Assembly (NCBI RefSeq): GCF_900112685.1
Contig: NZ_FOMS01000005.1
Coordinates: 124,001 to 188,000, forward strand
Length of the DNA: 64,000 nucleotides
Direction: 5' to 3'
Source: Roseivivax sediminis
GTDB lineage: Bacteria; Pseudomonadota; Alphaproteobacteria; Rhodobacterales; Rhodobacteraceae
The notes beneath the pieces were generated by a model. The model had not been told where the DNA came from and ran no database searches. It was given only the letters and a program-made list of their open reading frames with translations. The position numbers and the translations under genes were made by a program. Shown here in pieces: positions 3,488 to 49,099 of this stretch. The number at the start of each line of letters is the position of its first letter. Position 1 is the first letter of the stretch.

Positions 3488-4192
3488 ATGTCTGACGCGG
3501 AAGACGACCTGATCCTGGCGGAGCTCAGCGACGAAGAGCTTGTCCCCCAGATGCATGACGACCTCTACGACGGTCTCAAGGAAGAGATCGAGGAGGGCGT
3601 GAACCTCCTGCTCGAGCGGGGGTGGCAACCCTACGACATCCTCACCGAGGCGCTCGTCGCCGGCATGACGGTGGTCGGTCGCGACTTCCGCGACGGCATC
3701 CTCTTCGTGCCCGAGGTGCTGCTGGCGGCGAACGCGATGAAGGCCGGCATGGCGATCCTCAAACCGCTCCTGGCGGAGACCGGCGCGCCCACGGTGGGCC
3801 GCATGGTGATCGGTACGGTCAAGGGCGACATCCACGATATCGGCAAGAACCTGGTGTCGATGATGATGGAAGGCGCCGGCTTCGAGGTCATCGACATCGG
3901 CATCAACAACCCGGTGGAGAAGTACCTGGAGGCACTGGAGACCGAGAAGCCCGACATCCTCGGCATGTCGGCGCTGCTGACCACGACGATGCCCTACATG
4001 AAGACCGTCATCGACACGATGGTCCAGCAGGGCATCCGCGACGATTACATCGTGCTCGTCGGCGGTGCGCCCCTGAACGAGGAATTCGGCCAGGCCATCG
4101 GCGCCGACGCCTATTGCCGCGATGCCGCCGTAGCGGTGGAGACGGCCAAGACGATGATGTCGCGCAAGCACAATTCGCTCGTGGCCGGGTGA
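3488..4192 (+). CDS. Corrinoid (B12)-binding methyl carrier protein, MtbC1/MetH-module type
   Basis: This 234-residue protein has the two-part architecture of methyltransferase corrinoid proteins: a helical cap domain (about residues 20-100) and a Rossmann-like B12 domain. The cobalt-ligand motif DxHxxG is seen as D114-I-H116-D-I-G119, followed by SALLTTTMPYMK and the GGAPLN loop. Known role of the family: to carry a methyl group on cobalamin between two methyltransferases. ATG 3488 was chosen because AAGGAG lies 9-10 bp upstream; an earlier start at 3431 would add 19 unconserved-looking residues. It heads a group with a small membrane protein and DUF1638 but is separated from them by a strong terminator. 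Inferred role: B12 module of a split methionine synthase, or carrier for another methyl donor such as glycine betaine. Confidence 0.9.
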   Translation: MSDAEDDLILAELSDEELVPQMHDDLYDGLKEEIEEGVNLLLERGWQPYDILTEALVAGMTVVGRDFRDGILFVPEVLLAANAMKAGMAILKPLLAETGAPTVGRMVIGTVKGDIHDIGKNLVSMMMEGAGFEVIDIGINNPVEKYLEALETEKPDILGMSALLTTTMPYMKTVIDTMVQQGIRDDYIVLVGGAPLNEEFGQAIGADAYCRDAAVAVETAKTMMSRKHNSLVAG

Positions 4193-4221
4193 GCGAAGGG
4201 CCGCTGCCGCAGCGTCAAAGC

Positions 4222-4250
4222 GCCCCGCCGGGCCCGGCGGGGCTTTTCTT
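4222..4250 (+). terminator. Rho-independent terminator after the corrinoid protein gene
   Basis: A perfect 11-bp inverted repeat (GCCCCGCCGGG and its complement, 4222-4243) is followed at once by TTTTCTT. It lies 30 bp after the stop codon of the corrinoid gene and ahead of the next gene, so the downstream pair probably needs read-through or its own promoter. Confidence 0.85.
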
Positions 4251-4295
4251 GCGGGCACTTCCGTCCCATATTCTCTGTCAAGAGAGGAGACGTTC

Positions 4296-4469
4296 ATGCC
4301 CGTGACATTCTTCGCCCTGCTCGTGCTCTTTGTCCTGTCAGCGGCAGGCCTCACGATCTGGGCGCTCAGCGCTTTCGGCGCGATGACGATACTGCCGATC
4401 CTGCTGATCGTGGCGCTGGCGCTGCGCTGGGGGCTTGGGCACGTCCCTTTCGACGACCGTCACATCTGA
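4296..4469 (+). CDS. Small membrane protein, 57 residues
   Basis: An ATG at 4296 preceded by GAGAGGAGA encodes 57 residues ending HVPFDDRHI. Two hydrophobic segments fill residues ~4-27 and ~31-46 (TFFALLVLFVLSAAGLTIW; ILPILLIVALAL), so a two-helix inner-membrane peptide is likely. It sits between the corrinoid gene's terminator and DUF1638, and its stop lies inside or just before the DUF1638 start region, suggesting translational coupling. I do not recognise the family. The good ribosome site and neat packing argue for a real gene; the function is unknown. Confidence 0.6.
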   Translation: MPVTFFALLVLFVLSAAGLTIWALSAFGAMTILPILLIVALALRWGLGHVPFDDRHI

Positions 4470-5124
4470 GCGCGCCTTGGACGCGCCGCTCCCGGACGAC
4501 GACGCGCTGACGCTAGAAGGACGCGCCGCCGATCGGACGGGTCGCGTCCTGCTCATTGCCTGCGGCGCCCTCGCCAGGGAAATCCTCGACCTGCGCGACG
4601 CCAACGGCTGGGACCACCTCGATCTCGTCTGCCTGCCGGCGATCCTGCACAACACGCCTGAGTCGATCCCCGATGCGGTCGAGGCCGCCGTCGAGCGGCA
4701 TCGCGACCGTTATGACAGCCTCCACGTCGTCTACGCCGATTGCGGCACCGGCGGACGGCTCGCGGCGCGCTGCGCCGCCTTGGGGGTGGAGATGGTCGCC
4801 GGCCCCCATTGCTACAGCTTCTTCGAGGGCAACGCCGCCTTCGCCGCGCGGGACGAGATGACGGCCTTCTACCTGACCGACTTCCTCGCGCGGCAGTTCG
4901 ACGCTTTCGTCTGGCGACCGCTCGGCCTCGACCGCCATCCCGAGCTGCGCGAGGCGTATTTCGGCCATTACGAAACCCTCGTCTACCTCGCACAGACCGA
5001 CGATCCGGACCTGACCGAGACGGCGCGCGCCTGCGCGGACCGCCTCGGTCTCGCCTTCGAACGACGCTTCACCGGCTACGGCGATCTTGCCCCGACGCTG
5101 GCCCGCTGGGCCGCGAATCAATAG
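4435..5124 (+). CDS. DUF1638 domain protein
   Basis: The sequence from GRVLLIACGALAREI through LVCLPAILHNTPE, VVYADCGTGG and AGPHCYSFFEG matches DUF1638, a family of unknown biochemical function that I know as a recurrent neighbour of corrinoid methyltransferase genes. The start is unclear: TTG 4435 overlaps the previous gene by 35 bp, and TTG 4477 lies 8 bp after it and would drop 14 unconserved-looking residues; 4477 may be the true start. The 3' end overlaps the convergent deacetylase gene by 7 bp. Conserved Cys and His residues (ACGAL, ADCGTGG, GPHCYSF) could bind a metal or corrinoid, but that is inference. Role probably linked to B12-dependent methyl transfer. Confidence 0.85.
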   Translation: MGTSLSTTVTSERALDAPLPDDDALTLEGRAADRTGRVLLIACGALAREILDLRDANGWDHLDLVCLPAILHNTPESIPDAVEAAVERHRDRYDSLHVVYADCGTGGRLAARCAALGVEMVAGPHCYSFFEGNAAFAARDEMTAFYLTDFLARQFDAFVWRPLGLDRHPELREAYFGHYETLVYLAQTDDPDLTETARACADRLGLAFERRFTGYGDLAPTLARWAANQ

Positions 5125-6866
5125 TCGCCGCGCAGGATCTGGGACACCGGAACCAGCGCCACCTGCGACGCGCGATCCTGAAGGGACCACAGCAAGAGCG
5201 CAGAGAGCGTGTCGGCGCGCAGCCGCCCCAGCATGATCACCGGCCCGTCCTGGCGCGCACGGAAGGCGGCCTGATCTAGGAAGCGCCGCTGCACTGTCGG
5301 GTCCTGCCCGTCGCCGTCGAAATCGCGGAACACCGTGCCCGACGGCACACCGGCGCGCGCCGCAAGCTGTTGCGCGGTGTTCAGCCCGTTCGGCAGCATC
5401 ACCAGCCCATGCCCGGTATCGTTCAGGACTTCGGTCAACTGATCGGACACAGCCCGCCACCCCTGGAGCATCGAGCCCGGCGCCTCGAGCACGCCAACCG
5501 ACTGCGGCAGCGCACTGAACGCCGCCTCGAGCGCAACTTCCACGTCCGAGGCCGCCGCGCCCTCCGGCACGCCGGCAAGCGCGAGCACCTCGAAGCCCTT
5601 CTCGCGGTATGCCGCCATGCGCTCGCTTGCGTCCGGCAGGGCCGGGTCGACCGCGAAGCTCACCGGGAAGGGAAAGGCGCCCACCGCCTGCGGTCCCAGC
5701 GGCCCGCCCGCATCGTCGATGAGGATCACCGACATCCGCGGCCGGTCGCCGGCCTCCACGGCCGGAGCGGCGTAGCGTTCGATGGGAGGGCCGCTCTCTT
5801 CGGCCTCGGCCTCGGGCGCATTCTCCGGCACATCCGGATCGTCGCCCGGCCGGTGGACCGGCACCGCGTCGTCCCGGTCGGTCAGGCGGGTCGCCGGCGC
5901 GCCGACGCCGGGGCGCTCCGACGCGCCGGACTCCTCGGTCCCGGCCTCGTCGCCCTCGGTTTCCTCGCTCCCGGTCTCGTTGGCCTCGACCTCGGGACGC
6001 GGCGGCCGGGCGAGCTCCGGCTCGGGGGCGGCGTCCGGTTCGGGCGCCTCGGGGCCGGTCTCCGCGGCGGCGAGTCTCGGCGCCGCGTCCTCAGAGGGAG
6101 CCACAGGAGCCGGATCGCTCTCCGGCGCGGGCGGCGGTGTCGCGCCGATTTCGCTCTGCGCCTCGGGGGCCGCGTCGGAGGGCGCCGCGTCGTCATTGGT
6201 CTCGTCTTCCTCCCCGGCATCGGCGACAAGGCCGCTGTCCTCCCCCGGAACGGACGGGCTCGGCGGTTGCGCGGGTTCGGTGGCGATACTCGGGGCGGCT
6301 TCGGCGCCCGGCGCCTGCGGCTCCTCCACGGCGGGCGGCGCCATGACCGGGGCGTCGGTACTGACGGCAACCCGACCGGGGCTCTGCGGTGCATCGGGTG
6401 CGGGAAATGGGCCGCTCTCCTGCACCGCTTCCGGCCGACCGGCCGGCGCCGTGTCGCCACCCGGAACGTCACCCTCGCGCGGCGTTTCGGGCGTATCGAG
6501 GGGCACGGTCTCGCCCACCGCGACGCGGCTTTCCGCCTCCGGCCGGCGCGCCGGTTCGGGCGGCGGCGGCAACTCGGTCCTGGAGGTTTCCCGCTCTGCA
6601 TCTTCGGCAGGCATCGGCTGCGTATCGTCCTCGGGCCCCGCCTCCGCGGTGTCGGAGGCAGGCTCGGCGGCGCTCTCCTCGGACCCGTCACTCTCGGCGC
6701 CGGCGGATGGCCCTCCATCGTCCGTCTCCGCCACGGTCGGTTCCGGCGCTTCGACCCGGGTTCGGTCAGGATCCTCGGGCACGCCCACTGCAACCGACAG
6801 GACGGCCGCCGCCGCGACCGTGGCCGCGAGCCCCAGCGCCGCACCCGACAGAAACCCGCTTGCCAT
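5118..6866 (-). CDS. Divergent polysaccharide deacetylase family protein with a long acidic linker
   Basis: The 582-residue protein has an N-terminal membrane anchor (residues ~4-28), about 345 residues of low-complexity Glu/Ala/Pro/Ser-rich sequence, and a C-terminal domain (from ~375) of the divergent polysaccharide deacetylase family (YibQ/DUF610). That domain opens with SVILIDDAGG and contains LVMLPNGLNTAQQLAARAG and GPVIMLGRLR. It is expected to face the periplasm on its anchor. Family members have the deacetylase fold; their substrate is not established. The start ATG 6866 has AAAGGA upstream. It is convergent with DUF1638 (7-bp overlap) and divergent from trpD. Confidence 0.85.
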   Translation of the reverse strand: MASGFLSGAALGLAATVAAAAVLSVAVGVPEDPDRTRVEAPEPTVAETDDGGPSAGAESDGSEESAAEPASDTAEAGPEDDTQPMPAEDAERETSRTELPPPPEPARRPEAESRVAVGETVPLDTPETPREGDVPGGDTAPAGRPEAVQESGPFPAPDAPQSPGRVAVSTDAPVMAPPAVEEPQAPGAEAAPSIATEPAQPPSPSVPGEDSGLVADAGEEDETNDDAAPSDAAPEAQSEIGATPPPAPESDPAPVAPSEDAAPRLAAAETGPEAPEPDAAPEPELARPPRPEVEANETGSEETEGDEAGTEESGASERPGVGAPATRLTDRDDAVPVHRPGDDPDVPENAPEAEAEESGPPIERYAAPAVEAGDRPRMSVILIDDAGGPLGPQAVGAFPFPVSFAVDPALPDASERMAAYREKGFEVLALAGVPEGAAASDVEVALEAAFSALPQSVGVLEAPGSMLQGWRAVSDQLTEVLNDTGHGLVMLPNGLNTAQQLAARAGVPSGTVFRDFDGDGQDPTVQRRFLDQAAFRARQDGPVIMLGRLRADTLSALLLWSLQDRASQVALVPVSQILRGDY

Positions 6867-7061
6867 GGCCCGATCCTTTCCTGCTCCGCCACGCGCGACG
6901 CGCCGGCCCGAACCTCGTTTCCCCGGGTCCGGATCCGCCCCGGCGCCCCCTTGACGCGCCTTCGCCGCTCACCGCATGTATAGCGTGACCTGACCGGCCG
7001 CGACCACCCCTCGCGCCCCCCGAAACGACTGGCCGCGCATGACCTTTCTCCCCGTGCCCGC

Positions 7062-8075
7062 ATGACCGACGCACTGAAACCACTGATCGGCGCCGCAGCC
7101 GACCGCCCGCTGACGCGCGACGAGGCCGAGCGCGCCTTCACCCTTCTGTTCGAGGGCGAGGCGACGCCGAGCCAGATCGGCGGGCTGCTGATGGCGCTGC
7201 GCACCCGCGGCGAGACGGTCGAGGAATATGCGGCTGCCGCCGCCGTCATGCGCTCCAAGTGCCACAAGGTGACGGCGCCCGCCGGCGCGATGGACATCGT
7301 CGGCACCGGCGGCGACGGCAAGGGCACGCTCAACATCTCCACCGCGACAGCCTTCGTGGTCGCCGGGGCAGGCGTGCCGGTGGCCAAGCACGGCAACCGC
7401 AACCTGTCGTCGAAATCGGGGGCCGCCGATGCGCTGACGCAGATGGGCGTGAACGTGATGGTGGAGGCACGGCGCGTTTCCGCCATCCTGCAAGAGGCCG
7501 GCATCGCCTTCATGATGGCGCCGATGCACCACCCGGCGATGGCCCATGTCGGCCCCTCGCGGATGGAGCTTGGCACCCGGACGATCTTCAACATCCTGGG
7601 GCCGCTGACCAACCCGGCGGGCGTGTCCTATCAGCTGACCGGCGCCTTCGCGAAGATGCTGATCCGGCCCATGGCCGAGACGCTGCGCACGTTGGGATCG
7701 ACCCGGGCGTGGCTCGTGCATGGTGGCGACGGCACCGACGAGCTGTCCATCGCGGGGGTCAGCTGGGTCGCCGCGCTCGACGACGGCGAGGTGACGGAGT
7801 TCGAGCTGCACCCAGAGGAGGCCGGCCTGCCCGAACACCCGTTCGAGGCGATCCTCGGCGGAACCCCCGAAGAGAATGCCGCCGCCTTCCGCGCGCTGCT
7901 GGAGGGCACGCCCTCGGCCTACCGGGACGCGGTGCTGCTGAACTCGGCCGCCGCGCTGAAGGTGGCGGGTGTCGCACCCGACCTGCGCACCGGCGTCGAA
8001 ATGGCGGCGACCAGCATCGATTCCGGCGCCGCGAAAACGCGGGTCGAGACGCTCGCGCGCCTGACCTCTTCGTGA
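7062..8075 (+). CDS. trpD: Anthranilate phosphoribosyltransferase
   Basis: TrpD joins anthranilate to PRPP to give phosphoribosylanthranilate in tryptophan synthesis. The PRPP/Mg loop [14 protein letters not shown], the [17 protein letters not shown] anthranilate-channel motif and GPLTNPAGV are all present. Its 337 residues fit the family. It begins an overlapping operon: its stop TGA shares bases with the GTG start of ung. No trpG lies upstream, where a divergent deacetylase gene sits instead; in related genomes trpG usually precedes trpD, so the amidotransferase subunit must be elsewhere. Confidence 0.97.
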
Positions 8076-8722
8076 CCCTCACTCCGCCTCCGGCCTGGGC
8101 GCATCTGCCGTTCTTCGCCGACGAGCTGCCGCGGATCGAGGCGGCGCTCGCGGCCGAGACGCGGCCCGTGCTGCCGCCGACGGGGCAGGTCTTCGCCGCT
8201 CTGGACGCGCTGCCACCGGCCGGCGTGCGGGCCGTCATCCTCGGCCAGGATCCCTATCCGACGCCCGGCCATGCCCACGGTTTCGCCTTCTCGGTGGAGC
8301 CGGAGGTGCGCCCCCTGCCCCGCTCTCTTACGAACATTTTCAAGGAGATGCAGAGCGACCTTGGCGCATCTCCCGAAAACGGCGACCTGCGCGGCTGGGC
8401 AAGCGACGGGGTGCTGCTGCTCAACACGGCGCTCACGGTTCCTGCCGGCGACGCGGGTGGGCACGCGCGGCTGGGCTGGTCGCGCCTCGCACAGGAGGTG
8501 CTGCAGGATCTTTCGCAGGCGCCGCGGGCCTTTGTACTCTGGGGCGGACATGCGCAGCGCTTCGCCCCCTTCATATCCGTGCCCGGCCATCTTATCCTCC
8601 AGTCGCCACACCCATCGCCGCTGTCGGCGCGGCGGGGCTTTTTCGGGTCCCGCCCCTTTTCGCGTGTCAACGACTGGCTTAGGGCCAGAGGCGAGAGCGA
8701 AATCAACTGGACGAGGACATGA
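8072..8722 (+). CDS. ung: Uracil-DNA glycosylase (family 1)
   Basis: Ung removes uracil from DNA to start base excision repair. The water-activating loop [14 protein letters not shown] (catalytic D60), [18 protein letters not shown] and the C-terminal [11 protein letters not shown] loop are intact; 216 residues is normal. The start is GTG 8072, overlapping the trpD stop as GTGA, and its own stop overlaps the trpC start as ATGA, so it is translationally coupled on both sides. Finding a repair gene inside the trp operon is unusual, because trpD and trpC are normally adjacent. Confidence 0.95.
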
Positions 8723-9522
8723 CAGAGACCATTCTGGATAGAATCAAGGCCACCAAACTCAACGAGATCGCATCGGACAAGGCGACGATGCCGCTCGAAC
8801 TGATCGAAGGTGCGGCGAAGAACGCCGACCCCGTGCGACCGTTTGCCGACAGCCTCGCGCGGGCGCAGGGCAACGGCTACGGGCTCATCGCCGAGATCAA
8901 GAAGGCCTCTCCGTCCAAGGGTCTCATCCGGGAGGATTTCGATCCCGCCGAGCTGGCCCGCGCCTATGAACGCGGCGGTGCGACCTGCCTGTCGGTGCTG
9001 ACCGACATGGCCTATTTCAAGGGCGCCAAGCCTTACCTGACGCAGGCGCGCGGCGCGACGATGCTGCCGGCGTTGCGCAAGGATTTCATCTACGACCCCT
9101 ACCAGGTGGTCGAGGCGCGCTCGCTGCACGCCGACTGCATCCTCTTGATCATGGCCTCACTCGACGATGGCCAGGCGGCAGAGCTTGAGGCCTGCGCGAT
9201 GGACTGGGGCATGGACGTGCTGATCGAGGTGCATGACCGGGCCGAGCTTGACCGCGCGCTCAAGCTCAAGTCCCGGCTGATCGGCGTGAACAACCGCGAT
9301 CTCAATACCTTCGAGACCTCTCTTGATGTGACGCGCGATCTTTCCGCGCATGTCCCGGGCGACCGGCTTCTGGTCTCGGAGTCGGGTCTGCACACGCCTG
9401 CCGACCTGCGCGCGATGGCCGAGACGGGCGCACGCAGTTTTCTCATCGGCGAGTCGTTGATGCGGGAGGCGGACGTGGAAGCCGCGACCGCCCGCATCCT
9501 CGCCGACCCGGTGCCGGCCTGA
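8719..9522 (+). CDS. trpC: Indole-3-glycerol phosphate synthase
   Basis: TrpC closes the indole ring from carboxyphenylamino-deoxyribulose phosphate. The TIM-barrel motifs are complete: [15 protein letters not shown] (catalytic Lys), [44 protein letters not shown] and VSESGLHT. It is a stand-alone TrpC of 267 residues, not fused to TrpF. The ATG overlaps the ung stop. moaC follows after 3 bp, the trpC-moaC-moeA order common in alphaproteobacteria. Confidence 0.97.
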
Positions 9523-9525
9523 GCC

Positions 9526-10002
9526 ATGGCGGACCTCACGCATTTCGACGACGAGGGCCGCGCCCACATGGTCGACGTCTCGGACAAGGCCACGACGGCC
9601 CGCGTGGCCGTGGCTGTCGGCTGGGTGAAGATGTCCCCGGAAACACTTGAAATAATTGTAGAAGGCCGAGCCAAGAAAGGCGACGTGATCGGCGTGGCCA
9701 GGCTCGCCGGGATCATGGGGGCGAAACGAACCTCTGACCTGATCCCGCTGTGCCATCCGCTGCCGGTCACCAAGGTGGCCGTCGACATCGTGCCCGACGC
9801 GGATCTGCCGGGCCTCAGGATCGAGGCGACGGTCAAGACCACCGACCAGACCGGCGTCGAAATGGAGGCGCTGACCGCGGTGTCGACCGCCGCGTTGACG
9901 GTCTACGACATGGCCAAGGCGGTCGACCGGGGCATGGAAATCGGCGGGATGCACCTGCGCCTCAAGGACGGCGGCAAGTCCGGCCGATACGAAGCGCCAT
10001 GA
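9526..10002 (+). CDS. moaC: Cyclic pyranopterin monophosphate synthase
   Basis: MoaC converts the MoaA product into cyclic pyranopterin monophosphate in molybdenum cofactor synthesis. The signature [13 protein letters not shown] with its Cys-His-Pro turn and [20 protein letters not shown] are present in 158 residues, the usual length. It starts 3 bp after trpC and its TGA overlaps the moeA ATG, so expression is tied to tryptophan genes by position although the pathways are unrelated. Confidence 0.97.
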
Positions 10003-13477: not shown

Positions 13478-13526
13478 GACCACCTGCCGAAAAACGACGA
13501 CCCGCAAAACGATGGCCGGCAGTCAT

Positions 13527-13541
13527 CTAAAAAACCGTTAA
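13527..13541 (-). promoter_or_regulatory. CtrA-like binding site upstream of cckA
   Basis: On the minus strand this reads TTAA-CGGTTTT-TTAG, seven of eight bases of the CtrA consensus TTAA-N7-TTAA. It is 50 bp before the cckA start, a position that could overlap the promoter. Binding is inferred from sequence only. Confidence 0.5.
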
Positions 13542-19773: not shown

Positions 19774-21804
19774 ATGAACCAGGATCCCCTTGTCGTTTTC
19801 ACCCCGTCCGGACGACGCGGCCGCGTGCCTGCGGGGACGAGCGTTCTGGATGCCGCACGGAGGCTCGGGGTGGACCTCGATTCGGTCTGCGGCGGGCGCG
19901 GGATCTGCTCCAAGTGCCAGGTGGCACCGGCCTTCGGCAGCTTTGCCAAGCACGGGATCACCGCCGTTCCGGACGCGCTGTCGGATTGGAACGCGGTGGA
20001 GGCGCGTTACGACCGGAAGCGCGGCCTCGCGGCCGGGCGACGGCTCGGCTGTCAGGCCAAGGTGCTCGGCGATGCGGTGATCGACGTGCCGCCCGAAAGC
20101 CAGGTGCATCGGCAGGTCGTGCGCAAGGATGTCGACCGGCGCGAGATCGCCATGAACCCCGCGACGCGGTTGATGTATGTCGAGGTGCCCGAGCCCGACA
20201 TGCACGAGCCCGCCGGGGATTTCGAGCGGCTGGCGCGGGCTCTGGCCGACGAATGGGGCGTCGAGGGACTGTCGGCGGACCTGACCATGCTGGCGCGCTT
20301 GCAGCCGGTCCTGAGGCAGGGCGCCTGGAACGTCACCTGCGCGCTGCACAAGTCGCACAGGGATACGGGGTGGCGGCTGACCGGCCTGTGGCCGGGCCTG
20401 CACGAGGGCGGCCTTTTCGGCCTCGCGGTTGATGTGGGATCGACCACCATCGCGGCGCATCTGACGGACCTTTCGACCGGGGCGGTGCTCGCCTCGGCCG
20501 GGATCATGAACCCGCAGATCCGTTTCGGCGAGGACCTGATGAGCCGGGTGTCCTATGCCATGATGAACCCCGACGGGGCCGCGGAGATGACCGCAGCGGT
20601 GCGCCAGGCGCTGACGACGCTGACACGGCAGATCGCTTCGGATGCAGACGTTGCGACGGAGGCGATCCTCGAGGCGGTCTTCGTGTGCAACCCGGTGATG
20701 CATCACCTGCTCCTGGGTCTCGATCCGGTGGAACTCGGGCAGGCACCCTTTGCGCTGGCGACCTCGGGAAGCCTGTCGATGGACGCCGGCGCGCTGGGGC
20801 TGAGCTCCCTGCCCGCCTCCGCCCGGATCTACGTGCTGCCCTGCATCGCCGGCCATGTCGGCGCGGACGCCGCTGCCGTGGCGCTGTCGGAGCGTCCCGA
20901 CCGCGCCGAGGAGCGGACGCTGATCGTCGACGTCGGAACCAATGCCGAGCTGCTGCTGGGCGACGGCACGCGCGTTCTGGCCTGCTCGTCGCCCACCGGG
21001 CCGGCCTTCGAGGGAGCGCAGATCTCCTCGGGGCAGCGTGCGGCGCCCGGGGCGATCGAGGCGGTGCGGATAGATCCCGCGACCAAGGCGCCACGGATCC
21101 GGGTGATCGGCTGCGAGCTCTGGTCGGACGACCCGGGCTTCGAGGAGGCGACCCGCGCGGCCGGCATCACCGGCATCTGCGGGTCGGGCATCATCGAGGC
21201 GGTGGCGGAGCTGCGCCTCGCCGGGCTGATGGACCGGAGCGGGCTGATCGGATCGCCGCAGGCGACCGGCTCGGACCGGGTGATCGCGGACGGGCGGACC
21301 TGGAGCTACGTGCTGCATGACGGGCGCGCGGCCGGCGGCCCGCTGGTCACTGTCACGCAGGGCGACGTGCGGGCGATCCAGCTGGCGAAATCGGCGCTTT
21401 ATGCCGGGGCGCGACTTCTGATGGACGAGATGGAGATCGACCGGGTCGACCGGGTTGTGCTGGCCGGCGCGTTCGGCGCGCATATCTCGCCTCTGCACGC
21501 AATGGTGCTGGGGATGATCCCCGATGTGCCGCCGGACAAGGTGACGAGCGCGGGCAACGCGGCCGGCACCGGCGCGCGGATCGCCCTGTGCAACATCGAC
21601 GCGCGGAGGGAGATCGAAGAACTGGTCGGCGCCATCACCAAGGTCGAGACGGCAATCGAGCCGCGCTTCCAGGAGCATTTCGTGGCCGCGAACGCCATCC
21701 CGCATGACAGCGCGCCGTTTCCGGAGTTGCGCAGGGTGGTCGTTCTGCCGGAGGTGCAGTTCGGCGCGAGCGGCGGGCGAGAGCGGCGGCGGCGGCGCGG
21801 CTGA
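19774..21804 (+). CDS. ASKHA-domain corrinoid reductive activator (RamA/RACo-like, DUF4445)
   Basis: The 676-residue protein starts with a 2Fe-2S ferredoxin domain whose cysteines are C39, C45, C48 and C93 (VCGGRGICSKC; RLGCQAK). It continues with the DUF4445/ASKHA domain: FGLAVDVGSTTIAAHL, NPQIRFGEDLMSRVSYAM, VDVGTNAELLLG, CSSPTGPAFEGAQIS, GICGSGIIEAVAEL and LAGAFGAHI. Proteins of this type use ATP hydrolysis to drive reduction of inactive cob(II)alamin to cob(I)alamin in corrinoid methyltransferases. ATG 19774 was preferred because the Fe-S domain begins right after it; ATG 19720 would add 18 residues. Inferred role: reactivator of the corrinoid protein at 3.5 kb, replacing the reactivation domain of a normal MetH. 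Confidence 0.92.
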   Translation: MNQDPLVVFTPSGRRGRVPAGTSVLDAARRLGVDLDSVCGGRGICSKCQVAPAFGSFAKHGITAVPDALSDWNAVEARYDRKRGLAAGRRLGCQAKVLGDAVIDVPPESQVHRQVVRKDVDRREIAMNPATRLMYVEVPEPDMHEPAGDFERLARALADEWGVEGLSADLTMLARLQPVLRQGAWNVTCALHKSHRDTGWRLTGLWPGLHEGGLFGLAVDVGSTTIAAHLTDLSTGAVLASAGIMNPQIRFGEDLMSRVSYAMMNPDGAAEMTAAVRQALTTLTRQIASDADVATEAILEAVFVCNPVMHHLLLGLDPVELGQAPFALATSGSLSMDAGALGLSSLPASARIYVLPCIAGHVGADAAAVALSERPDRAEERTLIVDVGTNAELLLGDGTRVLACSSPTGPAFEGAQISSGQRAAPGAIEAVRIDPATKAPRIRVIGCELWSDDPGFEEATRAAGITGICGSGIIEAVAELRLAGLMDRSGLIGSPQATGSDRVIADGRTWSYVLHDGRAAGGPLVTVTQGDVRAIQLAKSALYAGARLLMDEMEIDRVDRVVLAGAFGAHISPLHAMVLGMIPDVPPDKVTSAGNAAGTGARIALCNIDARREIEELVGAITKVETAIEPRFQEHFVAANAIPHDSAPFPELRRVVVLPEVQFGASGGRERRRRRG

Positions 21805-40071: not shown

Positions 40072-40195
40072 TCCTGCGGCCGCGCTCGCACCGCAGCGTC
40101 GGCGCGGGCGTTTACCAAGAAACGGTTAAGAAATTGCCCCTCGTGGCCCGGAGCTTTCCGCTTTTACGCCGCAATCCCTGCGCATCCTGCGCGCC

Positions 40196-40708: not shown

Positions 40709-40728
40709 GCGACCGACCATAGGTGTCG

Positions 40729-41763: not shown

Positions 41764-42599
41764 TTGCGGCCTCCGACGTTCAGCATCCGGTCGAGCATGA
41801 TGGCGACGACGACGATGACGAAACCGCTCTCGAAGCCGAGCGAGGTGTTCACCTGATTGAGCGCCCGCACCACCGGCACGCCAAGCCCGTCCGCCCCGAC
41901 GAGCGCGGCGATCACCACCATCGACAGCGACAGCATGATGGTCTGGTTGAGCCCCGCCATGATCTGCGGAAAGGCGCTCGGCAGTTCCACCTTCCACAGC
42001 ACTTGCCGGTCGGTGGCGCCGAAGGCCCGCGCCGCCTCAAGCAACGGCTCGGGCGTGGAGGAGACGCCGAGATAGGTCAGCCGGATCGGGGCCGGCACCA
42101 CGAAGATCACCGTCGCCATAAGGCCCGGCACCATGCCGATGCCGAAGAACACGATGGCCGGAATCAGATAGACGAAGGTCGGCAGCGTCTGCATCAGGTC
42201 CAGCACCGGCCGGATCACGGTATAGAGGCGCGGGCGGTGCGCCGCTGCGATGCCAATGGGCACGCCCACCCCCATGCACACCACGCAGGCCGACAGGACA
42301 AGCGTCAGGCTTTCAAGCGTCTCTTCCCAGTAATCCTGGTTGAGCACGAACAGAAAGCCCAGACCCACGAACAAGGCCACCTTCCAGCTGCGCTGCAGCG
42401 CGTAGGCCAGCGCCATGAATAGGGCGATAATCACGAAGGGGTGCGGGCTTTCCAGCGCCCAGAGCACGCCGTCGATCAGCCCCTCCATCCCGCGCGCGAG
42501 CGCGTCGAGCAGCCAGCCTGCATGGGTGCGGATGCCGTCGAAGACGATTTCCGCCACGTCGCCCACGGGAATCTTGTAGTCTGTCAGCCAGTCCAGCAC
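41760..42599 (-). CDS. choW: Choline/betaine ABC transporter, permease
   Basis: An inner-membrane permease of the ProW/ChoW type with about six helices (for example PFVIIALFMALAYAL, VALFVGLGFLFVL, LVLSACVVCMGVGVP). The ATPase-contact (EAA) loop is EPLLEAARAFGATDRQVLWKVELP. The N-terminus VLDWLTDYKIPVGD matches ChoW starts, and GTG 42599 has GGGGGA six bases upstream; GTG 42617 is an alternative. It is co-transcribed with choV and divergent from betI, sharing a region with a BetI-like dyad. A choX binding-protein gene, usually first in this operon, is missing. Confidence 0.88.
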   Translation of the reverse strand: MLDWLTDYKIPVGDVAEIVFDGIRTHAGWLLDALARGMEGLIDGVLWALESPHPFVIIALFMALAYALQRSWKVALFVGLGFLFVLNQDYWEETLESLTLVLSACVVCMGVGVPIGIAAAHRPRLYTVIRPVLDLMQTLPTFVYLIPAIVFFGIGMVPGLMATVIFVVPAPIRLTYLGVSSTPEPLLEAARAFGATDRQVLWKVELPSAFPQIMAGLNQTIMLSLSMVVIAALVGADGLGVPVVRALNQVNTSLGFESGFVIVVVAIMLDRMLNVGGRK

Positions 42600-42697
42600 G
42601 GGTCGTCCCCCAGTCACGGCGCCGCGTCGGGCGCTCTTTCATCGCATGTCCGGTCGCGGCGGCTCATGGCCTCGCGACGCCCGGCGGCGCGTTGTTG

Positions 42698-42711
42698 ATT
42701 GACGGGTCAAT
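42698..42711. promoter_or_regulatory. BetI-type operator between choW and betI
   Basis: ATTGA-CGGG-TCAAT is a perfect 5-bp dyad, extending loosely to TTGATT...AATTAA, centred between the divergent choWV and betI genes. It resembles BetI operators, which BetI leaves when choline is present. It lies 58 bp from the betI start and about 100 bp from choW. Confidence 0.65.
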
Positions 42712-42768
42712 TAATGCCGCGATATGGTCCGCGCCGCAACCGCCAATTTGGCAAGGGATCCCGCACGC

Positions 42769-43368
42769 ATGGGAAAAGAGGTCCAGCGCCGGCGCGACCT
42801 GATCGCGGCGACCATCCGCGAGATAGGCCAGCACGGCACGCTGAACGTGACCGTGGGGCAGATCGCGCGCAGGGCCGGCGTCTCGCCCGGCCTCGCCTTC
42901 CACTATTTCGGCGACAAGGAGGCGCTGTTTCTCGCCACCATGCGGTCGATCCTGCGCGACTACGCGCGCGACGTGCGCGACGCGCTCGACACGGCACAGG
43001 GTTCGCGCGCGCGCCTCGACGCGATCATCGAGGCCAGCTTCGCCGACAGCCATTTCCGCGACGGCGCGGTCGCCGCCTGGCTCAATTTCTACGTTCTGGC
43101 CCAGACCTCACAGGAGGCCGCGCGATTGCTGGCGCTCTATCACCGGCGGCTCGGCTCAAACCTCCTGCACGATCTGCGCCCGCTTGCCGGGGACGAGGCG
43201 CCCGCCATCGCAATGCGGCTCGCGGCGTTGATCGACGGGCTGTATCTGCGCTTCGCCCTCGCTCGCGGCGCCGTCGACGCGCAGCCGGCCGCCGACCAGG
43301 TGCGCGCGGCCCTGGCCCGCGAACTGGCCGCCTGCGCTCACCGCGGCGACAGCGCAGTCAGGTTGTAG
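42769..43368 (+). CDS. betI: TetR-family choline-responsive repressor BetI
   Basis: An N-terminal TetR HTH (RRRDLIAATIREIGQHGT, VGQIARRAGVSPGLAFHYFGDKEAL over two stretches) is followed by a ligand domain with WLNFYVLAQTSQEAARLLALY and LAALIDGLYLRFAL, matching BetI. BetI represses choline uptake and oxidation genes. ATG 42769 gives 199 residues, the family length; ATG 42724 is possible. The gene sits alone facing choWV; betA, betB and betC do not follow as they do in many relatives. Its end overlaps the convergent lipoprotein gene by 31 bp. Confidence 0.88.
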   Translation: MGKEVQRRRDLIAATIREIGQHGTLNVTVGQIARRAGVSPGLAFHYFGDKEALFLATMRSILRDYARDVRDALDTAQGSRARLDAIIEASFADSHFRDGAVAAWLNFYVLAQTSQEAARLLALYHRRLGSNLLHDLRPLAGDEAPAIAMRLAALIDGLYLRFALARGAVDAQPAADQVRAALARELAACAHRGDSAVRL

Positions 43369-43862
43369 CCGTACCAGTCCAGGATCTCCTCGGCCGCCGC
43401 CAGCCGCTCGCCCGGCCGGCCCGTCCGGTCGAGCACGAAGACCCAGGCGCCACCCGGATCGCCCATCGCCGCGGTGCGCCCGTCCGCGTCCAGCCAATGC
43501 ACCCAGAGCGGCCGGCCCGCGACGGTGAACCGCCCCGGCGCGACTTCCTCGACCGCATGGTCCGTTCCGGCGATACGCATGCGGCCCGGCGCGAACCGCA
43601 CGGCGGCGCCGGGCGGCACGCCCGCCCCGCGGACCACCTGCCACTCGCCCTCGAGCCGCGCCGCCGTCACATCGATCTGCGCCCCCACCGGTGCGCCGCT
43701 CTGCCTCAGCGGTGCCGGCGGCGCGGGCAGGTCCGGCGTCGTCCGGCCGCAGGCGACAACAACGGACACGAGGACGAGGCAGGCCAGTCGGGCCGCAAGC
43801 GCCCCGCAGCCGCCGCGCCCTCCCGCGCGCGCATCGCGCGACGACGCGAACGCCTCGCTCAC
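43338..43862 (-). CDS. Lipocalin-like outer lipoprotein, hypothetical
   Basis: The GTG at 43862 overlaps the rlmE stop (GTGA). The 174-residue product has a lipoprotein signal ending [12 protein letters not shown], where the Cys would be lipidated. The mature part ([21 protein letters not shown], split; [40 protein letters not shown]) resembles small lipocalin-like/META-type barrel proteins of Rhodobacteraceae. No function is known. The 3' end overlaps betI on the other strand. Confidence 0.75.
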
Positions 43863-44599
43863 GTGTCCTCCTCCGGATCCTTGCGGCCCCTGAAGCCCGT
43901 AGCCACCACAAACTTCTCGGAGGAATCCGCGCGCGAGGCCGGCGGCTTGACGTTGGCGACATTGTCGAAGCGCTGCTTCAGCAGCGTCTGCAGACCGCTT
44001 TCCGCACCGCCCGCCAGCACCTTGGCGACGAAGGTGCCGCCGTCCTCCAGCACGTCGAAGGCCAGCTCCGCCGCCGCCTCGCACAGCGCCACGATGCGCA
44101 GGTGGTCGGTCTGCTTGTGCCCCGAGGACGAGGCGGCCATGTCCGACATCACCACGTCCGCCGGCCCGCCGAGCCAGTCCTTCACCCGGTCGTCGGCGCC
44201 ATCCTCCATGAAATCGTGCTGGTGGATCTCGGCCCCCGGGACCGGGTCCACCTCCTGCAGGTCGACGCCCAGCACGCGCCCGCGCTGGCCCGACCGCTCG
44301 CCGAGCGCGTTGACCCGCGCCGCCGCCACCTGGCACCAGCCGCCCGGCGCGCAGCCGAGGTCCACGACCCGCGCCCCCGGCACCAGGAACCGGAAGCGAT
44401 CGTCGAGCTCGAGGATCTTGAACGCCGCGCGGCCGCGATAGCCCTCGGCCTGCGCCCGCTTCACGTACGGATCGTTGAGCTGACGCTGCAGCCAGCGGGT
44501 CGAGGACGCCCTGCGTCCCCGTGCCGTCTTCACCTTGACCTTCAGGTCGCGCTGCCCGCGCCCCGAAGAACTCTTGCCTCGTCCCGGTTCCTTCGCCAT
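43859..44599 (-). CDS. rlmE: 23S rRNA (uridine-2'-O-)-methyltransferase
   Basis: RlmE (FtsJ/RrmJ) methylates U2552 of 23S rRNA. SAM-binding [16 protein letters not shown] and the K-D-K-E catalytic set are recognisable (K in [12 protein letters not shown] in [14 protein letters not shown] in TFVAKVL, E in SSEKFVVA). A basic N-terminal extension ([20 protein letters not shown]) makes it 246 residues. The ribosome site AGGGG before ATG 44599 is provided by the tail of an intergenic repeat. It is followed by an overlapping lipoprotein gene. Confidence 0.95.
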
Positions 44600-44600
44600 C

Positions 44601-44657
44601 GCCCCTGCTTCATCTGCCCTGAAATATCCCGGGGGTGTGGGGGCAGCGCCCCCACGC
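44601..44657 (-). repeat. Dispersed stem-loop repeat, copy D
   Basis: Read on the minus strand: GGGGGC-GCT-GCCCCC, then CCCGGGATATTT, GGGCAGATGAAG and CAGGGGC. It lies between the Ppx gene (upstream) and rlmE. Its last bases, CAGGGGC, sit just before the rlmE ATG and appear to serve as its Shine-Dalgarno. Confidence 0.85.
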
Positions 44658-44687
44658 GGTCGCCCCGCATCGCCCGGCCCGTCACTC

Positions 44688-45800
44688 TCAGAACGGTCCG
44701 TCCTCGAGCACCCCGTCCGCCGACATCTGCGCGTAGAGGAGGCCCTCGCGCAACCCCCGGTCGGCCACCGACAGCCGATCCGTCGGCCAGCACCGCAGCA
44801 GGGCCTGCAGGATCGCCGCGCCCGACATGATCAGCGCCTGCCTGTCCTGGCCGATGCGCGGATCGCGCCGGCGGCCGACCGGCCCGAGCTCCAGATACTT
44901 GCGGATCACCGCCTCGATCTGATCGGAGGTCATGCGCAGCCCGTCCACCTTCGTGCGGTCATAGCGCTTCAGTCCCAGATGCGAGGCCGCCACCGTGGTT
45001 ACCGTGCCGCTGGTGCCGACGATCTGGAAACCGGCGCGTTCCTGTTCGTCCTTGTAGGGCGCGAATTCGGCGAGGTTCTCCTCGAAGAACCACGACATCA
45101 GCGCGTAGCGCGCCGCGTCGTCCTCCACGTCAGAGAACTGGTCGCGCAGCGTCGCCACGCCCAGCGGCACGCTGATCCAGTCCACCACCTTGGCAGCAGG
45201 AAACGGGCTGCCTGCCGTGTGGAACCCGGCATGCAGCCGCATGATCGCCTTCGGCCGCTCGCGGTGCGGCACGCTCGACAGGTCGATCCACACCAGCTCG
45301 GTCGAACCGCCGCCGATATCCACGACCAGAAGCTGTTCGGTCTTGGTGGAGACCAGCGGCGCGCAGGAAATCACGGCCAGCCGAGCCTCCTCCTCGGGCT
45401 GGATGATCTCCATCCTGAGGCCGGTCTCGCGCTCCACGTGGCGGATGAAGGTGCGGGCGTTCTGCGCGCGGCGGCAGGCTTCCGTGGCCACCAGCCGCAT
45501 CCGCGTCACGCCGTGGCGCCGGATCTTCTGCTGGCACACGCGCAGCGCTGCCACCGTGCGCCCCATGGACGCGCGCGACAACCGTCCCGTGCGCTCGAGC
45601 CCATGGCCCAGCTGCACGGATTTGGAGAAGCTGTCGATCACGTGAAACTGGTTGCCCCTGGGTTGGGCAATCAGCATCCGACAGCTGTTTGTTCCCAGAT
45701 CCACCGCCGCATAGAGGCCGGCTGGATCGGGCTTCGCGGGTGCGTCGCTCTCGACCGGTTTCGGGAAAGCGCCCGCACCTGTGGGACGCTCTGGCGCCAT
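44688..45800 (-). CDS. Ppx/GppA-family phosphatase
   Basis: An ASKHA-fold exopolyphosphatase/pppGpp phosphatase family member of 370 residues: [17 protein letters not shown] (phosphate 1), [38 protein letters not shown] (phosphate 2) and [11 protein letters not shown] (adenosine-type motif). It hydrolyses polyphosphate or pppGpp; which one cannot be told, and C-terminal domains of full Ppx are absent. ATG 45800 has GGAAAGG nine bases upstream; ATG 45806 is too close to that site. It is followed by repeat copy D and rlmE. Confidence 0.9.
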
Positions 45801-46139
45801 GTTCATGCGCCTTTCCGATGTCAACTTGGCCTCACGTTACGCCCCGCGCCGGACCCGCGCAAGCCTCCGTGCCGCCGCCCGTCGCCGCGTCGCCTCCGGG
45901 CCCGCCGGACCCGCGCGCGAAGCCGATGGCAGGACATCCCGTAGGACGAAGCGCCACGCTCCGGCACCGTGCCAGGAGGGCCCTCTTTGCGCATCTGCGG
46001 CCTCCGGGACACACTAGGGAGTGTCCGTTCGAATGCGACGCGATCTGTCGCTCACGCTGTCCGGGATGTCGAAATCCGACCGCAGGGGATGCCCCGCGGC
46101 CGCTATCAGGGACCTCAGCGGAGCAGAGGAGACCCGGCC
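45801..46139. other. Gene-free divergent region
   Basis: This stretch between the divergent Ppx and virulence-factor genes holds no convincing gene. It should contain promoters for both sides. I see a GGACAC...GTGTCC stem near 46007-46026 and the ribosome site of the next gene, but no riboswitch that I recognise. Confidence 0.4.
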
Positions 46140-46442
46140 ATGGCAGCGCTGACCATCGTCTACTGGCGCGATATTCCCGCCCAGGTCATCGTCGGCGGCG
46201 GCCGGCGCGGCGCCAAGATGCCGCTGCCCGAACGGTTCGAGCAGGCCATCGACCGGGCTGCCATGGCTTCCGGCGCGGCCGGGACCGACGCCTATCTCGC
46301 AGGCTGGCACAAGGTCCCCGCAGGAGAGGCGTCCGGCGACGCCGCGGCCGAGGCCGCACGCATCGACGCCGAGTACGATCATCAGCGGTTAATCTCGCTC
46401 GCCCATAATGGCGGCCACGCCCACGCCCACGCCACGCTCTGA
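46140..46442 (+). CDS. Small 'virulence factor'-family protein
   Basis: The 100-residue product (ALTIVYWRDIPAQVIVGGG, GAKMPLPERFEQAIDRAAM, AYLAGWHKVP) matches a small family labelled virulence factor in databases, from memory. Despite the name, its role is not known, and in Rhodobacteraceae it sits beside methyl-THF genes. ATG 46140 follows AGAGGAGA. The C-terminus is His-rich (GGHAHAHATL), possibly metal-binding. It heads a four-gene unit with a MetF-like protein 17 bp downstream. Inferred: accessory factor in one-carbon or B12-dependent methyl metabolism. Confidence 0.8.
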   Translation: MAALTIVYWRDIPAQVIVGGGRRGAKMPLPERFEQAIDRAAMASGAAGTDAYLAGWHKVPAGEASGDAAAEAARIDAEYDHQRLISLAHNGGHAHAHATL

Positions 46443-46458
46443 CGACGGAGATCCGGAC

Positions 46459-47382
46459 ATGACCATCCTGCCCTTCGGCAAGCGCGCCCATGCCGCGCGC
46501 CCCGACGCCTCCGTCGCCGCGCTGGCCGCGACCGCCTCGATCGAGGTGATGCCGCGCACGCTGGCCAAGGTGGACGACCTGCCCGCGATCCTGCCCACCG
46601 GCACGCGGGTCTACATCGCCCATATCGACGGCACCCCTATCGAGGAGATGGTCGCGGCCGCCGCCCGGCTCGCCCAGGGCGGCTACACCGTGATGCCGCA
46701 TTTCCCCGCGCGCGTCATCGAAGACAAGGCGATGCTCGCCGACTGGATCGCCCGCTACCAGGGCGAGGCCGGGGTCACCGAGGCGCTGCTGCTCGCCGGC
46801 GGCGTGTCCGAGCCGCGCGGCGCCTTCCATTCCTCCATGCAGATGATGGAGACCGGGCTTTTCGACGCGCACGGCTTCACCCGCCTCCACGTCGCCGGCC
46901 ACCCCGAGGGCAACCGCGACATCGACCCCGACGGCAGCGACCGCGCCGTGATGGAAGCGATGCACTGGAAACAGGCCTTCGCGGAGCGTACCGATGCGGA
47001 TATGGGCATCGCCACGCAGTTCGCCTTCGAATCCGCGCCGCTCTTCGCCTGGGCCGACCGGCTCTCGGCCGAGGGAATCGCGCTGCCGATCCATCTTGGC
47101 CTCGCCGGACCGGCCAGGCTGCAGACGCTGGTGCGCTTCGCCGTGGCCTGCGGCGTCGGCCCGTCGCTGCGCGTGCTGCAACGCCGCGCCGCCGACGTCA
47201 CCAAGCTGGTCAAACCCTTCACGCCCACCGACATCGCGACCGAGATCGCCGCCCACGTGACGGAGCGGCCGACGGGCAACATCGCCGGCATCCACCTCTT
47301 TCCGCTGGGCGGGATCGCCGCCTCCGCCGACTGGCTGGCAGAGATGCGCGCGCCCGCGATGGCGCAGGCGCGACGCCGCTAG
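46459..47382 (+). CDS. Methylenetetrahydrofolate reductase-like protein (MetF family, divergent)
   Basis: The 307-residue protein keeps the MetF TIM-barrel pattern: ASIEVMPRT (substrate-end Glu), TRVYIAHIDGTPIEEM, YTVMPHFPARVI with the conserved PH, EALLLAGGVSEPRG, LHVAGHPEGN with the H-P-E signature and TQFAFESAPLFAWADRL with conserved Gln-Phe. MetF interconverts methylene-THF and methyl-THF using FAD. It diverges from standard MetF, so it may run in the oxidative direction during demethylation. Upstream GGAG places ATG 46459. It is followed at 6 bp by a HAD gene and then the methyl-THF methyltransferase. Confidence 0.8.
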   Translation: MTILPFGKRAHAARPDASVAALAATASIEVMPRTLAKVDDLPAILPTGTRVYIAHIDGTPIEEMVAAAARLAQGGYTVMPHFPARVIEDKAMLADWIARYQGEAGVTEALLLAGGVSEPRGAFHSSMQMMETGLFDAHGFTRLHVAGHPEGNRDIDPDGSDRAVMEAMHWKQAFAERTDADMGIATQFAFESAPLFAWADRLSAEGIALPIHLGLAGPARLQTLVRFAVACGVGPSLRVLQRRAADVTKLVKPFTPTDIATEIAAHVTERPTGNIAGIHLFPLGGIAASADWLAEMRAPAMAQARRR

Positions 47383-47387
47383 CCCCG

Positions 47388-48053
47388 ATGGCGGCCGCGC
47401 TTCTCTTTGATCTCGACGGCACGTTGCTCCATTCGGATGCGTTGCACATGCAGGTCTTCATCGAGCTCTACGCCGAACGCGGCCGCCGGATCGACGAAAG
47501 CTATTACCTGAGCAGCATCCACGGCCGCCACAACTCCGAAACCTTCGCCCGCGATTTCCCGGACGAGGACCCGATGGCCCTGTCGGACGAGAAGGAGGCG
47601 CGCTTTCGCGACCGCCTGCCGGCGCAGGTCGATCCGATGCCGGGCCTGCCCGCCCTTCTCGACCGTGCGGCGGCCGAAGGCTGGCGCGTCGCCGTCGTAA
47701 CCAATGCGCCGCGCCTCAACGCCGAAGCGATGCTGAGCGCGATCGGCCAGCGCGCCCGGTTCGACACGCTGGTGATCGGCGACGAATGCGCGCGGCCGAA
47801 ACCCGACCCGCTGCCCTACACGGAGGCGATGGCGCTCCTCGGCGCCCGCCCGCAGGACGCCATCGCCTTCGAGGACAGCCCCTCCGGCACGCGCGCCGCG
47901 CAGCTTTCCGGCGCGTTCACCATCGGCGTGCGCTCCTCCCTGCCGCACGACCGGCTTCGCGAGGCCGGCGCCCATGCCTCGATCGCCGACTTTGCCGATC
48001 CCGCCCTCGCGCCGATTCTCGACCAACGCCTTCAGACCGGAGCCGCCCCATGA
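47388..48053 (+). CDS. HAD-superfamily phosphatase
   Basis: The four HAD motifs are present: LLFDLDGTLLHSD (nucleophile Asp and acid/base Asp), VVTNAPR, the Lys of ARPKPDPLPY, and AFEDSPSGTRAA (metal Asp). A helical cap with HGRHNSETF follows motif I, as in phosphoglycolate-phosphatase-like enzymes. The substrate is unknown; 221 residues is usual. It sits within a methyl-THF unit, and its stop overlaps the next start (ATGA), so it may clear a phosphorylated side product of that pathway, which is conjecture. Confidence 0.88.
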   Translation: MAAALLFDLDGTLLHSDALHMQVFIELYAERGRRIDESYYLSSIHGRHNSETFARDFPDEDPMALSDEKEARFRDRLPAQVDPMPGLPALLDRAAAEGWRVAVVTNAPRLNAEAMLSAIGQRARFDTLVIGDECARPKPDPLPYTEAMALLGARPQDAIAFEDSPSGTRAAQLSGAFTIGVRSSLPHDRLREAGAHASIADFADPALAPILDQRLQTGAAP

Positions 48054-49099
48054 CCCGCACCGTCCTGCAATCCGCGACCAAGACCGCGATCCTCGGCTTC
48101 GACCAGCCGTTCTGCGTGATCGGCGAGCGCATCAATCCCACCGGCCGCAAGAAGCTCGCCGCGGAGCTCGAGGCCGGCGATTTCTCCACCGTGGAGAAGG
48201 ACGCAATCGCCCAGGTCGCCTGCGGCGCCACGGTGCTCGATGTGAACGCCGGCGTGGTCTACAACTCCAACCCCAACCCGAACGAGACCGAGCCGCCGCT
48301 CATGCGGAGCATGATCGAGCTCGTGCAGGGCCTGGTCGACGTGCCGCTCTGCATCGACAGTTCCGTGCCCGCGGCGCTCGAGGCCGGGCTCGACGCCTGC
48401 CACGGCCGCCCGCTGGTGAACTCCGTCACCGGAGAGGAAGAGCGGCTCGAATTTGTGCTGCCGCTGGTGGCAAAGTACAACGTGCCGGTGGTGGCGATCT
48501 CCAACGACGACACCGGCATCTCCGAAGACCCGGACGTCCGCTTCGCCGTCGCGAAAAAGATCGTGGAGCGCGCGGCAGATTTCGGCATCCCCGCGCACGA
48601 CATCGTGGTCGATCCCCTGGTCATGCCGATCGGCGCGATGGCGACCGCGGGCCTGCAGGTCTTCGCCCTCGTGCGGCGCCTGCGCGACGAGCTGGGCGTG
48701 AACACCACCTGCGGCGCCTCCAACATCTCCTTCGGGCTGCCGAACCGGCATGGGATCAACAACGCCTTCCTGCCGATGGCGATGGCCTCGGGCATGACCT
48801 CGGCGATCATGAATCCCTGCGCGCTGCCCCTGACCCCCGCGAAAGTGGCGGAGAAACGGGCCGAGGTGGAAGCGGCGGGCGTGATGCTGCCCCCGGACAT
48901 GGACGACGAAACCTTCTGCCGGCTGTTCAACATCGGCTCCACCGAGGCACGGCCGGGCGGCGAGATGACGGCGATCCGCGCCGCCAACTTCCTGACCGAC
49001 AACGACGCTTCGGGCGCCGCCTGGATCCAGCACAACCGCGTCCCCGGCGAGGCCGCAACCGGCGGCCGCGCCGGAGGTCGCCGCCGGCGCCGCGCCTGA
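48050..49099 (+). CDS. Methyltetrahydrofolate:corrinoid methyltransferase (pterin-binding MetH-like module)
   Basis: The 349-residue protein is a pterin-binding TIM barrel: FCVIGERINPTGRKKL, VLDVNAGVVYN, LCIDSSVPAALEAGL, LVNSVTGEEER, VAISNDDTGISED, DIVVDPLVMPIG and TTCGASNISFGLPNRHG, as in AcsE, MtgA and the folate module of MetH. It moves a methyl group between methyl-THF and a corrinoid protein. It overlaps the HAD stop. Its partner corrinoid protein is most likely the one at 3.5 kb, since none is adjacent. The C-terminal ~20 residues are Arg/Gly-rich and extra to the family. Direction (methionine synthesis or demethylation) is not decided by sequence. Confidence 0.93.
   Translation: MTRTVLQSATKTAILGFDQPFCVIGERINPTGRKKLAAELEAGDFSTVEKDAIAQVACGATVLDVNAGVVYNSNPNPNETEPPLMRSMIELVQGLVDVPLCIDSSVPAALEAGLDACHGRPLVNSVTGEEERLEFVLPLVAKYNVPVVAISNDDTGISEDPDVRFAVAKKIVERAADFGIPAHDIVVDPLVMPIGAMATAGLQVFALVRRLRDELGVNTTCGASNISFGLPNRHGINNAFLPMAMASGMTSAIMNPCALPLTPAKVAEKRAEVEAAGVMLPPDMDDETFCRLFNIGSTEARPGGEMTAIRAANFLTDNDASGAAWIQHNRVPGEAATGGRAGGRRRRRA

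Follow-up and report, generated by a model that had tools for sequence, protein, structure and literature searches.

The window analysed here is a stretch of 64,000 nucleotides from Roseivivax sediminis (C5:124001-188000), taken from an assembly of 4.62 Mb in 37 contigs (G000). It carries, at three separate places, a corrinoid carrier, a corrinoid reactivator and a methyltetrahydrofolate (methyl-THF):corrinoid methyltransferase, which are probably members of the MtgBCDE/RamA/DUF1638 system of B12-dependent methyl transfer. Domains were called with Pfam and names with NCBIfam models, the latter judged against the cut-off of each model. The genes concerned, inside the window and elsewhere in the genome, are the following:

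3488 to 4192, + strand: mtgC-like stand-alone corrinoid carrier, with B12 cap and B12-binding domains and a DIHDIG motif
4435 to 5124, + strand: DUF1638 protein (PF07796, 104 bits)
19774 to 21804, + strand: RamA/RACo-like corrinoid reactivator, with 2Fe-2S ferredoxin and ASKHA domains
46408 to 47382, + strand: possible methylenetetrahydrofolate reductase of a divergent, MetF2-like type, opening the apparent mtgD operon
47388 to 48053, + strand: HAD hydrolase, flanked by the MetF-like gene and mtgD in the same apparent operon
48050 to 49099, + strand: mtgD-like stand-alone methyl-THF:corrinoid methyltransferase (Pterin_bind, 94 bits)
2208 to 3344, - strand: PA0069-family radical S-adenosylmethionine (SAM) protein adjoining the carrier, a conserved neighbour
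C5:121580-122590, just outside the window, same strand as the carrier: MtgE homocysteine S-methyltransferase, 336 amino acids (PF02574)
L098:8829-10343, - strand: MTTB protein, unlinked to the other mtg genes

The carrier is a protein of 234 amino acids with matches to PF02607 (66 bits) and PF02310 (93 bits). Of the four frames in the genome that match PF02310, that of the carrier is the only short one (280 amino acids, against 761-894 for the others). No NCBIfam model reached its cut-off on this protein, the top one being MtgC_2 (205 against 370 bits). The reactivator combines an N-terminal 2Fe-2S ferredoxin domain (25 bits), whose four cysteines are Cys 39, 45, 48 and 93, with the linker, middle and C-terminal ASKHA domains of RACo (281 bits). 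Its nearest solved structure is 3zyy (281 bits), and it is the single match to PF14574 (RACo) in the genome. Here too no NCBIfam model passed its cut-off, AcsV scoring highest (374 against 800 bits) and the RamA model reaching 92 against 500 bits. The names given to the carrier and the reactivator rest on their domains and on published relatives. MtgD, for its part, passes the NCBIfam model for methyl-THF:corrinoid methyltransferases (395 against 259 bits). These three proteins had been picked out by a sequence-only reading of the window, and the domain matches confirm that they are real. That reading had overlooked the DUF1638 gene, which follows the carrier by 242 bases on the same strand and is the only PF07796 match in the genome, as well as the operon that contains mtgD. 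The MetF-like, HAD and mtgD genes form a tight row, in which HAD and mtgD share a 4-base overlap, and this order is kept in the congener G003.

The absence of a homocysteine-binding protein, on which the idea of a MetH minus its homocysteine module had been built, holds within the window and fails in the genome: mtgE occupies the interval from ~2.42 to ~1.41 kb ahead of the first base of the window. The encoded protein is stand-alone and has the NCGVG and GGCCG cysteine motifs. A novel MetH devoid of the homocysteine module is ruled out by this gene, 1.4 kb beyond the window. The presence of these genes, their domains and motifs, their order, synteny and co-occurrence are established here.

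The same distinction between window and genome applies to the claim that no full-length MetH is present. It is correct for the window, and a genome without metH is ruled out by a MetH with its reactivation domain on contig C9. This enzyme is encoded by two adjoining open reading frames (ORFs) with a 4-base overlap, PF02574 (323 bits) being in one and PF00809, PF02607, PF02310 and PF02965 (402 bits; G000:C9:135435-136244) in the next, in the canonical order. It carries the zinc-cysteine motifs and DVHDIG, and the second ORF alone passes both NCBIfam MetH cut-offs (1507 against 1497 and 1203 against 1011 bits). The sequence-only reading had proposed a genome search for intact metH or metE, and had named a complete copy of either, together with the lack of a methionine phenotype, as what would refute it. 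The first half of this is borne out by the complete two-ORF metH; for metE, no PF01717 catalytic domain was found in the genome (10 of 14 controls being positive), in a search that left the MetE N-terminal family outside. Since a complete MetH is present, methionine synthesis is not assignable to the split system alone.

A single protein of the MTTB/MtgB type (PF06253, 781 bits) is encoded in the genome, at C15:90849-92342. Its frame is open, with no in-frame stop, and it is therefore of the non-pyrrolysine type. The top solved relative is 4yyc, a putative trimethylamine methyltransferase (697 bits), and the glycine betaine methyltransferase chain 9yce scores 404 bits.

The surroundings of the carrier are widely conserved. 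One genome scan returned at least 584 relatives of the carrier, of which the best 80 were kept as named mtgC loci; these bear mostly roseobacter-type titles, with 83-89% identity. Among these 80, 77 show DUF1638, 68 the radical SAM gene and 59 MtgE. Some of the loci end at contig ends, and among the 72 that reach at least 9 kb upstream MtgE is present in 56. The order MtgE, radical SAM gene (on the opposite strand), MtgC, DUF1638 is observed in 52 of the 80. In the locus of Ruegeria pomeroyi strain SZCCDBG043 (L073), whose carrier is 85% identical to that of R. sediminis, MtgE was not found within 10 kb of the carrier, which agrees with the separate published locus tags of R. pomeroyi DSS-3. 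We also observed a roseobacter-type mtgC locus, 85% identical to the one studied here, in a record titled Enemella evansiae (L013). Enemella evansiae is an actinobacterium, and an erroneous title or a mixed sample is probable.

Upstream of the window, at L004:2720-9507, lies a row comprising a regulator of the AraC/DJ-1 type, a periplasmic-binding-protein gene, and ATPase and permease genes judged by eye to be those of a branched-chain-amino-acid-type ABC transporter. This row leads into mtgE, with 30-72 bases between genes, and the putative substrate of the transporter might be some methylated compound. Further on, mtgE is separated from the radical SAM gene by a large gene (window 1-1967, - strand, continuing upstream; whole gene L004:10722-13967), in which many GGxGxD-type repeats are seen by eye as RTX-like. 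Among the mtgC loci of the Mtg-bearing congeners it was seen in that of G003 and in none of the other five, which makes a recent insertion likely. Direct repeats around mtgE were considered as a scar or a sign of insertion and set aside; two pairs were found, both weak, of 24 and 20 bases.

The system itself is already known, and R. sediminis adds another case. In the available portions of the account of Phaeobacter inhibens (Price 2018, PMC5764234), a three-part methionine synthase is described together with RamA-like and DUF1638 proteins, whose mutants are rescued by methionine; DUF1638 is needed together with the RamA-like protein for methionine synthesis. There, the DUF1638, carrier, radical SAM and homocysteine genes follow one another in locus numbering, the radical SAM counterpart is not needed for methionine, and the three synthase genes resemble each other in fitness pattern (all r > 0.7). 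According to the same portions, no PF02965 protein was found in that bacterium, and its methionine depends on the split enzyme. Counterparts of all five P. inhibens parts were found in the R. sediminis genome, with a comparable arrangement: DUF1638, carrier, radical SAM protein and homocysteine module in one neighbourhood, and the pterin module and the RamA-like protein elsewhere. The mention, in the sequence-only reading, of a multi-part synthase with a RamA-like partner in Roseobacter relatives thus pointed to the right kind of system. In contrast to P. inhibens, R. sediminis has a canonical MetH besides the split enzyme and an RTX-like repeat gene between MtgE and the radical SAM gene.

The second published system, as far as the available part of its description goes, is that of R. 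pomeroyi (Mausz 2025, PMC12478193), in which mtgC and mtgD are needed both for methionine synthesis and for the use of glycine betaine. A metF paralogue lies downstream of mtgD, two MTTB proteins are induced, and carriers of the system have up to seven of these. R. sediminis resembles it in the MetF-like gene beside mtgD, the MTTB-type MtgB, the RamA-like protein and DUF1638, and differs in having one MTTB protein and a MetH. The same source reports MtgBCD in 28 of 239 metH-bearing genomes; the absence of canonical MetH is usual in Mtg carriers and is not required. Compared with canonical MetH, the Mtg proteins belong to the same domain families, and their chemistry would be alike; their domains are on separate proteins, and the RamA-like protein and DUF1638 would replace the S-adenosylmethionine domain for reactivation.

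We infer the reactions, their direction and the substrate from these published relatives. MtgC (3488-4192) would carry the methyl group on cobalamin, having been loaded by the MTTB-type MtgB encoded on contig C15, whose methyl donor would be a quaternary amine and most likely glycine betaine. MtgD (48050-49099) would exchange methyl groups between MtgC and tetrahydrofolate, working both ways, and the neighbouring MetF-like protein could drain methyl-THF into one-carbon oxidation. MtgE would pass the methyl group from MtgC to homocysteine, making methionine beside MetH, and the RamA-like protein, with DUF1638, would re-reduce oxidised cobalamin. We consider it probable that these genes form a member of the MtgBCDE/RamA/DUF1638 system that acts as a second methionine synthase and mainly as a demethylase, given that a complete MetH is encoded as well. 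The demethylation of betaine had been put forward in the sequence-only reading as an alternative to methionine synthesis; it is a published function of the same parts (available portions of PMC12478193), and an MTTB protein is present, so that the idea is retained, as a second function rather than as an alternative.

A survey of 61 genomes (R. sediminis and 60 relatives, 37 being in the same family and 24 at class level) was made with four markers, namely MetH (PF02965), DUF1638, MTTB and an MtgE orthologue (at least 57% identity in the family). The 24 class-level genomes stand outside the tally of MetH/MtgE classes. In the family, MetH is present in 8 genomes, DUF1638 in 33, MTTB in 34 and MtgE in 32, one of the latter being a partial copy (G016). 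The predominant class has DUF1638, MTTB and MtgE without MetH (27 of 37, two of these less than 90% complete). All four markers occur together in four genomes (G000, G008, G010 and G012), three have MetH only (G001, G002 and G031), and one, G003, has MetH, DUF1638 and MTTB without MtgE. Two genomes fit no class: G016 (82% complete), with MTTB and the partial MtgE and neither DUF1638 nor MetH, and G030 (85% complete), with DUF1638 and MTTB and neither MtgE nor MetH. Every one of the 33 family genomes with a completeness of 90% or more has MtgE, MetH or both, the four without MtgE all being MetH carriers (Fisher p = 0.0017, with no correction for kinship). The family pattern agrees with two synthases replacing each other. 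At class level, G037 and G051 have MetH, DUF1638, MTTB and MtgE-like proteins (53% and 52%). Relatives of MtgE, MTTB, MtgC, DUF1638, MtgD and RamA are co-located in G051 (L119), and again in a named Rhizobium sp. locus (L069).

The locus of G003 is closely similar to that of R. sediminis (transporter permease 91%, radical SAM protein 83%, MtgC 92%, DUF1638 75%, TrpD 89%), and no mtgE is present in it, the distance between the transporter and the RTX-like gene being ~0.26 kb against 1.2 kb. In a search for a remnant of mtgE in G003, tblastn gave nothing better than E 2.3, and short-word blastn yielded at best 13 matching bases (E 0.004), attributed to chance. This genome has MetH and keeps ramA (75%), the MetF-like/HAD/mtgD row (73%, 73% and 88%) and MTTB. 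As MtgE is found at this locus in all six remaining Mtg-bearing members of the genus, R. sediminis included, the simplest reading is that mtgE was lost in G003. The gene set that is left supports a role of MtgE in methionine synthesis alone, and of the remaining parts in demethylation. In the tree of MtgC and DUF1638, G000, G003 and G008, all with MetH, group together (97% support), and G010 is placed beside them at 37% support. In the MetH tree, G000, G003, G002 and G008 are split from the others (100% support) and G001 pairs with G012 (80%), which indicates that MetH has had no simple history in the genus, and that the MetH of G001 differs from the others in origin or history. It can be hypothesised, at even chances in our estimation, that the genus is in the middle of a swap of methionine synthases, in which the presence of MetH would make the split machine dispensable and lead to its stepwise loss, with MtgE, the module for methionine alone, gone in one lineage (G003) and the whole machine in others (G001 and G002), in an order of steps that we infer.

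Several points weigh against a second synthase that is mainly a demethylase. The canonical MetH may carry all methionine synthesis, and MtgE alone could act on methylated donors, given the in vitro activity of Bmt discussed below. The sole NCBIfam match of the MTTB protein is a trimethylamine model below its cut-off (266 against 525 bits), and its gene is unlinked to the remaining mtg genes. The assignment of 46408-47382 as a divergent MetF2-like reductase is a weak call, a possibility suggested by a TIGR00676 match at E 4.6e-4 (19.6 bits, cut-off 293.7) in a protein that matched no Pfam family. In the survey of 61 genomes, DUF1638 and MTTB serve as stand-ins for MtgC, MtgD and RamA; G030 (85% complete) has both and lacks MtgE as well as MetH. 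The ~80 kb around mtgC in G008 contained no ramA and no mtgD, the rest of that genome being unsearched.

The alternative that survives best, which we regard as a real though lesser possibility, is that MtgB, MtgC, MtgD and MetF2 do no more than demethylate betaine-like compounds, all methionine comes from MetH and MtgE is a vestige. It draws on the completeness of the two-ORF MetH, with its zinc-cysteine motifs, DVHDIG and PF02965, and on G003, which keeps mtgC, DUF1638, ramA, mtgD, HAD, the MetF-like gene and MTTB without mtgE. Yet mtgE is intact in R. sediminis, and there is no clear relaxed selection relative to MetH-free congeners. Its nonsynonymous and synonymous divergences (dN and dS) against G008 are 0.15 and 1.08, and the ratio of dN between MtgE and MtgC, computed for 21 pairs, is 2.1-2.7 where both genomes have MetH (3 pairs), 0.8-4.2 where neither has it (6) and 1.5-2.9 in mixed pairs (12). 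Relaxed selection on mtgE in MetH-bearing genomes, which had been considered, is not seen in these ratios. Because of the dN and dS values, and because MetH-bearing pairs do not exceed MetH-free pairs in the rate of mtgE over that of mtgC, the gene looks constrained and appears to be maintained rather than decaying.

That MtgE is a stand-alone betaine (or dimethylsulfoniopropionate, DMSP) homocysteine methyltransferase, independent of MtgC, seems unlikely. Its NCBIfam name is indeed betaine--homocysteine S-methyltransferase (590 bits, cut-off 338), and purified P. inhibens Bmt makes methionine directly from DMSP or betaine in vitro, without cobalamin, according to the available part of PMC12366255. 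By that name and by its locus, MtgE is of the same kind as Bmt (PGA1_c13370). Against solved structures, however, it is closer to the homocysteine domain of MetH (134 bits, the top match) than to BHMT (42-49 bits), the three P. inhibens genes share similar patterns of fitness (PMC5764234, available portions), and orthologues were found in none of the three family genomes that lack both DUF1638 and MTTB. Finally, the proposal that the three window genes are unrelated parts of different corrinoid enzymes, to which their separate places lend something (ramA is ~16 kb and mtgD ~44 kb from the carrier), is highly improbable in view of the single DUF1638 and RACo matches in the genome, the carrier being the only one of the four PF02310 matches in a short frame, and the co-location of all six relatives in L119 and L069.

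Further features were noted on contig C4. A third PF02574 protein (L006:7606-8499), stand-alone and homocysteine S-methyltransferase-like, was set aside and not counted in the Mtg system; its top NCBIfam match, to a homocysteine S-methyltransferase model, is below the cut-off (118 against 215 bits). At the Rfam gathering threshold, L006 contains a 5' ureB small RNA (L006:15131-15420, 104 bits) and a thiamine pyrophosphate (TPP) riboswitch (L006:2333-2452, 55.7 bits, barely over the gathering score). No Rfam match was obtained in the window, L004 or L005, and regulation gave no clue.

The second synthase and demethylase that we favour for R. sediminis extends a published, little known system of B12 methyl transfer to another genome. 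The locus is also a case in which a window edge, together with the lack of a genome-wide search, makes an ordinary gene set resemble a gap. The mosaic of MetH and Mtg is of modest interest. In the open-licence literature, the PNAS supplementary tables aside, we found no description of the loss of mtgE in a MetH-bearing congener. Congeners of the G003 type offer a way to tell which role of MtgC and MtgD persists when MetH makes methionine, and, if the swap of synthases is true, they would amount to natural mutants in which the contribution of MtgC and MtgD to methionine synthesis is separated from their role in demethylation.

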